Positions 28,809 through 30,309 of a stretch of 64,000 bases of DNA are shown one piece after another; positions within the stretch are counted from its first letter, which is position 1; every line of letters starts with the position of its first letter. The position numbers and the translations under genes were made by a program. This DNA is from Thiomicrospira aerophila AL3 (lineage in GTDB: Bacteria; Pseudomonadota; Gammaproteobacteria; Thiomicrospirales; Thiomicrospiraceae): assembly GCF_000227665.2 (NCBI RefSeq), contig NZ_CP007030.1, forward strand, positions 496,001 to 560,000. Direction: 5' to 3'. Below the pieces are notes generated by a model. It saw only the letters and a program-made list of their open reading frames with translations, was not told the origin of the DNA and searched no databases.

Positions 28809-30020
28809 TTATTGTTCCGCTACGTAGATAGCACCGGTTTCTGGATCAATCTCCAAATCAACTGGTGTTAACTCTTCTCGCCAGCAAGGTCCTTCAACAC
28901 AGACCCCGTCCTCAATTCTAAAAAAAGCATCATGGACTGAACATTTCATGGTCATTTCAAAGGGATTAATATCAATTTTATAGGCTTCATCCAATGGCAC
29001 ATCTTGGTGCGGACAGTTATTTAAATAAGCCTTAATTTCATTGTCATGCTTAATCAATACAACCTTGTGACGCAGTCCCGGTGCAGGCACAACGGTCGCA
29101 CGTGAATTGGTGATATGTTTAATATTGGCAATGGGTTTGCGGGTGACCAGAGGGGCTAATAGATTATCTAAGCCGAGTTGTTGGCATTTGCGGCGTGCAA
29201 GCTGATTGCCAGCTGCGACGGCGTCTGCTAGCGGTTTTTGAGCGATTAACGCATCAATCGTGGCGGCGATAAAGGTATCGCCGGCGCCTAGGGTATCGAC
29301 AGGCTTGGCTAAGGCTTGAGTGGGTTGGTGACTGGGTTGACTTCCTGGTGCCGCATACCAGGCCCCATCACTTCCCCAGCTACAGATAATAGTCGCCTGC
29401 GGTGCTAAGGCTTGTAGGTGGGTGATCAGTTCATCAGCCTGCACCAATCCCAAGGATTTAGCATAGGCTTCACCCGTAAAGATGATATTGACCTGTTCTA
29501 ATAGGGCTTCAAGCCCGTCCCGGGGTTTTTCCAGCTCAATAGAAATAGGCTGGTGGCTTAAAAAGGTTTTAGCAATATTGAGCATGCCACCCAGTGCGTC
29601 AAGGTTGCGTCCTTCAAAATGCAACCAGTCAAAGGTTTCAATTTCAATTTTGGCAAAATGCTCAAAGCTTATTTCAGGTAGATCACGATAATGAACAATG
29701 GTACGCGAGCCATTTTGTTGATTAATCTGCACATAGGATGTCGGGGTCGAGCCTTGAATAAAGCGTTGAATTAGGCTTGTATCTATGTGTCGTTCTTCTA
29801 AGGCCTTTTTAAGGCGTTTAGCGGCATCATCGGTTGCCAAGGTGGCACAAATGGCACAATCATGTCCCAGTTGCTGCAGTACGTTTAAATTATTGGCGAC
29901 ATTACCGCCCAGCGCAAACACTCGAGTCTGTGCACGTTGTTCGGAATTTTCTGACGGATAGTGGGGTAAAAAAAGTTGCGTATCAAGAACTAAATTGCCT
30001 ATACCTAAAATGCGCGCCAT
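28809..30020 (-). CDS. PfkB-family sugar kinase fused to a C-terminal Rieske domain
   Basis: 403 residues in two parts. Residues 1-300 are a ribokinase/PfkB kinase: N-terminal GNLVLDTQLF, ALGGNVANNLNVLQQLG, and catalytic D248 in DTLGAGDTF. Residues about 305-403 are a small Rieske-type domain with CPH (C336, H338) and CSVH (C360, H363), i.e. the CxH...CxxH ligand set of a [2Fe-2S] cluster, followed by DAFFRIEDGVCVEGPCW. The frame is continuous without a stop between the parts. Known families: sugar kinases are not normally redox proteins, so a cluster-gated kinase or a misjoined function is possible. Substrate unknown. Confidence 0.85.
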   Translation of the reverse strand: MARILGIGNLVLDTQLFLPHYPSENSEQRAQTRVFALGGNVANNLNVLQQLGHDCAICATLATDDAAKRLKKALEERHIDTSLIQRFIQGSTPTSYVQINQQNGSRTIVHYRDLPEISFEHFAKIEIETFDWLHFEGRNLDALGGMLNIAKTFLSHQPISIELEKPRDGLEALLEQVNIIFTGEAYAKSLGLVQADELITHLQALAPQATIICSWGSDGAWYAAPGSQPSHQPTQALAKPVDTLGAGDTFIAATIDALIAQKPLADAVAAGNQLARRKCQQLGLDNLLAPLVTRKPIANIKHITNSRATVVPAPGLRHKVVLIKHDNEIKAYLNNCPHQDVPLDEAYKIDINPFEMTMKCSVHDAFFRIEDGVCVEGPCWREELTPVDLEIDPETGAIYVAEQ

Positions 30021-30286: not shown

Positions 30287-30309
30287 TTATTCACAAAATC
30301 TGTGGATAA
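30287..30309. promoter_or_regulatory. Two inverted DnaA boxes
   Basis: TTATTCACA (30287-30295) and TGTGGATAA (30301-30309), the second being the exact complement of the consensus DnaA box TTATCCACA and the first differing by one base. They face each other across five bases in an AT-rich setting. No further boxes seen nearby. Confidence 0.45.

Follow-up and report, generated by a model that had tools for sequence, protein, structure and literature searches.

A predicted ketohexokinase-like kinase and a Rieske domain are joined in a single gene of Thiomicrospira aerophila AL3, and the fusion is real and fixed in the order Thiomicrospirales. Every sampled genome of this order of sulfur-oxidising autotrophs thus carries a fusion of two well-known families. 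Although both families are known, their combination appears to be undescribed: a full-text literature search, whose coverage left most subscription journals outside, found no paper on a kinase-Rieske pair; the architecture may be recorded in domain databases.

Architecture of the fusion gene in the Thiomicrospirales

The window, i.e., the whole stretch of 64,000 nucleotides that was analysed, contains the fusion as a single unbroken open reading frame on the minus strand (Table 1). The initial annotation had described one uninterrupted frame encoding a PfkB kinase with its catalytic aspartate and a Rieske domain with the complete CxH...CxxH ligand set, neither half being truncated, and all of these statements are borne out. 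The Pfam matches cover residues 7-286 (PfkB) and 316-381 (Rieske) of the 403-residue protein, each above its curated cut-off. The catalytic residue Asp248 lies within a GAGDT motif and is invariant in the alignment, while the ligand residues (Cys336/His338 and Cys360/His363) are invariant both in 18 aligned fusion proteins and in the 55 Rieske sequences compared. Other assemblies (Thiomicrospira, Thiomicrorhabdus, and relatives) contributed 18 loci, 17 of which have a full-length open frame, at 54-86% identity. Conservation is equal in the kinase half (mean column identity of 73%) and the Rieske half (72%), and the distance between Asp248 and Cys336 amounts to 86-88 residues in all 18 aligned fusion proteins. 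The full-length AlphaFold model reaches a mean pLDDT of 63, which is too poor for judging contact between the domains.

Table 1. Features of the kinase-Rieske fusion gene (positions refer to the window)
Feature	Position	Strand	Basis
Whole fusion gene, KHK-like kinase + Rieske	28809..30020	-	403 aa; both Pfam domains; architecture in 63/63 order genomes
Kinase domain (predicted), residues 1-290	29151..30020	-	Pfam PfkB 4.2e-31; PDB ketohexokinase 3.6e-47
Catalytic Asp248, GAGD motif (= KHK Asp258)	29277..29279	-	Invariant in alignment
Cys279, counterpart of KHK Cys289, adenine pocket	29184..29186	-	Alignment; PMC2651755; Cys in 91/119 kinases
Rieske domain (predicted) with lead-in, residues 298-403	28812..29129	-	Pfam 3.1e-9 (316-381); model pLDDT 83; Foldseek 3gce ferredoxin 9.6e-7
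First cluster-ligand motif, Cys336-Pro-His338	29007..29015	-	Invariant 55/55
Second cluster-ligand motif, Cys360-Ser-Val-His363	28932..28943	-	Cys and His invariant 55/55
Extra cysteine motif, Cys374-x-x-Gly-Pro-Cys379	28884..28901	-	Both Cys, Gly, and Pro invariant 55/55

The same domain architecture was sought in 63 genomes of the order, which span seven genus codes and include single-contig genomes, as well as in genomes of other orders. Within the Thiomicrospirales the two halves are consecutive on one strand in every genome, and outside the order five further loci are fused. Close relatives therefore do not carry the halves as separate genes: the fusion extends throughout the order, and separate adjacent genes occur only in other orders. 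The frame is a single open one in all but two genomes. In one of these (G022, C1:787500-790500, L214) the kinase is intact and a frameshift lies within the Rieske half; in the other, a fragmented genome (G036, C180, L215) with the same sequence as locus L018, the frameshift lies in the kinase half. Both frameshifts may represent sequencing errors or decay. They are what could be held in favour of a sequencing or assembly artefact, or of a decaying gene, such that the join would not be real in the cell. That explanation is improbable in the extreme, and an artefactual join is ruled out by the finding of consecutive halves in all 63 genomes, which represent seven genera, by frames that are open with only two exceptions, and by conservation of the key residues.

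Kinase and Rieske halves compared with known proteins

The kinase had been annotated as a PfkB sugar kinase; the PfkB fold and the GAGD aspartate stand, but the generic assignment does not, as the closest proteins are ketohexokinases (KHK). Mammalian ketohexokinases are the top matches of the kinase half in the PDB (Table 1), with sulfofructose kinase and ribokinases far behind, and ketohexokinase is also its top Foldseek match. Named sugar-kinase and PfkB equivalog identities were rejected, because none of the NCBIfam equivalog cut-offs was reached (the highest score, for ribokinase, was 65.8 bits against a cut-off of 299.65).

The residues binding fructose in KHK include Asp15, Gly41, Asn42, Asn45, and Asp258 (PMC2651755, PMC11332825), and Cys289 packs on the adenine base (PMC2651755). 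The counterparts of the KHK fructose site in the fusion (Asp13, Gly39, Asn40, Asn43, Lys165, and Asp248) are retained in at least 118 of 119 kinases compared. Arg141, suggested in a 2024 paper as specific to KHK versus ribokinase (PMC11332825), corresponds to Arg138, which is invariant in the 119 kinases. The fusion thus resembles the animal fructokinase of the PfkB/ribokinase family in its fructose-contact residues, the GAGD aspartate, and this arginine; unlike KHK, it is bacterial and carries a C-terminal Rieske domain. Two pocket positions also differ. All 119 kinases have a histidine (His110) in place of KHK Tyr112, the residue that shuts the KHK pocket at its C6 end. Opposite KHK Asp27 in the alignment, the source genome has Asn and most other kinases have Asp. 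Taken together, the kinase half is, as judged from its sequence, a ketohexokinase-like, ATP-dependent ketose kinase, and it probably phosphorylates a ketose at C1. Since His110 replaces Tyr112 at the C6 end of the pocket, the natural ketose may differ from fructose. Sucrose-derived fructose was considered as the purpose of the kinase and rejected: sucrose-synthase-type genes occur in 27 of the 63 order genomes and are absent from the source genome. Several of the genomes with such genes (e.g., G025 and G048) have a separate PfkB gene approximately 3 kb away.

The Rieske half appears closest to soluble ferredoxins of the dioxygenase type and is predicted to hold a [2Fe-2S] cluster. A narrow profile of this half had no PDB match, while a broad Rieske-family profile matched ferredoxins of aromatic dioxygenases and toluene monooxygenase (3e-6). 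The model of the Rieske half has the Rieske ferredoxin fold, with 3gce as the best Foldseek match. High-potential (bc1-type) Rieske proteins typically have a disulfide formed by additional cysteines of the two ligand loops; at the corresponding loop positions 341 and 362 no cysteine was found among the residues counted in 55 Rieske sequences. The Rieske half shares the cluster-ligand pattern and the fold superfamily with the cytochrome bc1/b6f protein, but lacks its loop-disulfide cysteines and trails a kinase domain of cytosolic type. The Rieske ferredoxins of aromatic-ring dioxygenases and toluene-4-monooxygenase (3gce, 1fqt, and 1vm9) are likewise soluble, contain CxH...CxxH, and have no loop-disulfide cysteines. 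In contrast to them, the Rieske half is linked to a kinase, shows approximately 15-21% identity (structural matches), and has no recurring oxygenase gene among the neighbours examined. It also differs by an invariant CxxGPC, whose cysteines, Cys374 and Cys379, sit within a GxCxxGPC motif in 55/55 Rieske sequences. Three members of this CxxGPC family reached no NCBIfam cut-off.

Relatives outside the order and possible coupling of the halves

The wider sample comprised 369 genomes of the class Gammaproteobacteria, and a KHK-like kinase is encoded in 98 genomes from outside the order. An adjacent Rieske gene of the same family and on the same strand accompanies 31 of these 98 kinase loci, five are fused (codes f158, f146, and f55), and 62 have no Rieske gene nearby, although some of the latter sit close to a contig end. 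Sampling 299 genomes across the phylum yielded one more strong kinase match, also within the class, so that the kinase appears largely confined to the class. The adjacent pairs of these other Gammaproteobacteria-type genomes involve the same protein families as the fusion, in two genes instead of a single one, and occur, mostly as coupled genes, across many taxonomic families of the class. The kinase is first in 30 of the 31 pairs (L053 is reversed), and many pairs are readable with a 4-base stop/start overlap. A quick kinase tree requires three changes for the fused state and seventeen for the adjacent state, of which the starred branches alone force one and six, respectively; several independent origins of the fusion are likely on this basis.

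Among genomes outside the order holding both genes, the two are linked in 36 of 57, while random gene order would be expected to give well under one. The Rieske protein is also more common in kinase-bearing genomes (odds ratio 2.8, P 2e-5, uncorrected for ancestry). Owing to this repeated adjacency, coupling, and fusion, the kinase and the Rieske protein probably work together. Of 365 genomes sampled outside the order, 146 encode a member of the CxxGPC Rieske family, and the kinase is often missing from them (89 genomes); 41 of the 98 kinase genomes lack the family. As a nearby Rieske gene is missing from most kinase loci outside the order and many Rieske genes are kinase-free, neither protein seems to be needed for the basic chemistry of the other. 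The linkage of the two proteins is established by sequence; an effect of one on the other would lie beyond what such data can tell.

The favoured mechanism, put forward tentatively and falling somewhat short of an even chance, is redox gating of the ketose kinase by the attached Rieske cluster. Gating of phosphorylation had been proposed in the initial annotation, with a cluster that would sense oxidants or iron. The two domains would form a complex of fixed geometry, in which the Rieske domain probably lies close to that end of the kinase where the nucleotide binds, as suggested by the start of the lead-in approximately 20 residues after Cys279. Changes in cluster occupancy or redox state, perhaps with participation of the Cys374 and Cys379 thiols, might alter the conformation of the kinase or the access of ATP, and ketose phosphorylation would then track the redox state of the cell. 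Several observations speak against gating: the genome with the frameshifted Rieske half (G022) keeps its kinase intact, most kinases outside the order (62/98) have no nearby Rieske gene and 41/98 of their genomes lack the family altogether, 89 genomes have the Rieske protein but no kinase, and the nearest solved Rieske proteins are dioxygenase ferredoxins.

This last resemblance makes electron delivery a strong rival. Rieske domains known so far are mostly electron carriers, and the Rieske half could be a ferredoxin that exchanges electrons with some oxidoreductase acting on the substrate or product of the kinase; two steps of a pathway would be coupled and the kinase itself would be unregulated. 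Such a role is quite conceivable while falling short of probable. The closest solved structures are electron-transfer ferredoxins of dioxygenases and of toluene monooxygenase, and the presence of the Rieske protein in many kinase-free genomes is what would be expected of a general carrier; yet the neighbours inspected around fusions and gene pairs, which are annotated in part, included no recurring terminal oxygenase or reductase. Coupled genes and repeated fusion would also suit any requirement for equal amounts of two proteins of the same process, obtained through an operon or a fusion, with neither electron transfer between the partners nor gating, the Rieske domain stabilizing the kinase or working independently. 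The occurrence of the two proteins apart from each other agrees with this explanation, which is nevertheless unlikely, given that the 86-88 residue spacing and the invariant ligands suggest more than a tether, even if the spacing could reflect shared descent. Redox gating is slightly preferred to electron delivery because of the steady geometry, the probable attachment near the ATP pocket, and the absence of a recurring oxidoreductase from the inspected neighbours.

Control of the kinase by the cluster, if real, would make enzyme regulation a new role for Rieske domains and would give a KHK-type enzyme built-in control, whereas the KHK pathway of animals has been described as not robustly regulated (PMC11332825). 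A broader proposal, that a built-in Rieske redox switch ties ketose phosphorylation to redox in carbon-fixing sulfur bacteria and that many members of the class have a two-gene version of it, is possible and must be regarded with some doubt.

Genomic neighbourhood

In the order, the fusion gene faces rlmB and rnr. Most of the order loci (L003-L020, e.g., L015:3739-4488) have, upstream of the fusion, a divergent regulator of the FNR/CRP type whose N-terminus carries a cysteine motif, followed by a Pal-like lipoprotein and then a pepN-like gene. In the source genome and its nearest named relative, a phosphate transporter is located on the upstream side of the fusion. Candidate FNR boxes upstream of the fusion were no better than shuffled sequences in all but one locus.

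Outside the order, a protein of 1350-1670 aa with cNMP-binding, rhodanese, and FGE-sulfatase domains is encoded upstream of about ten kinase loci (L053:366-4448, L181:5340-9653, and relatives). It also precedes some kinase-free Rieske genes, and much of its middle part has no Pfam match. As a general partner this protein was rejected, having no match in the source genome in a search run without a positive control. In a few genomes, CxxGPC Rieske genes (L181-L200) adjoin ABC-transporter-like genes.

An inverted pair of 9-mers resembling DnaA boxes, TTATCCACA-N5-TGTGgATAA, is located at 30287-30309 of the window. A replication origin at this site was rejected: there is no flip of GC skew in the window, and a dnaA-like gene, recognised from its sequence, is at C1:66. 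Of the 18 loci examined, 16 have such a pair on the upstream side, at a distance of 250-360 bp from the fusion; the other two have little upstream sequence. The exact pattern occurs at 0-2 sites in each of 62 order genomes, usually with one near the fusion; in two genomes (G056 and G060) the pair stays with the FNR-like gene and not with the fusion.
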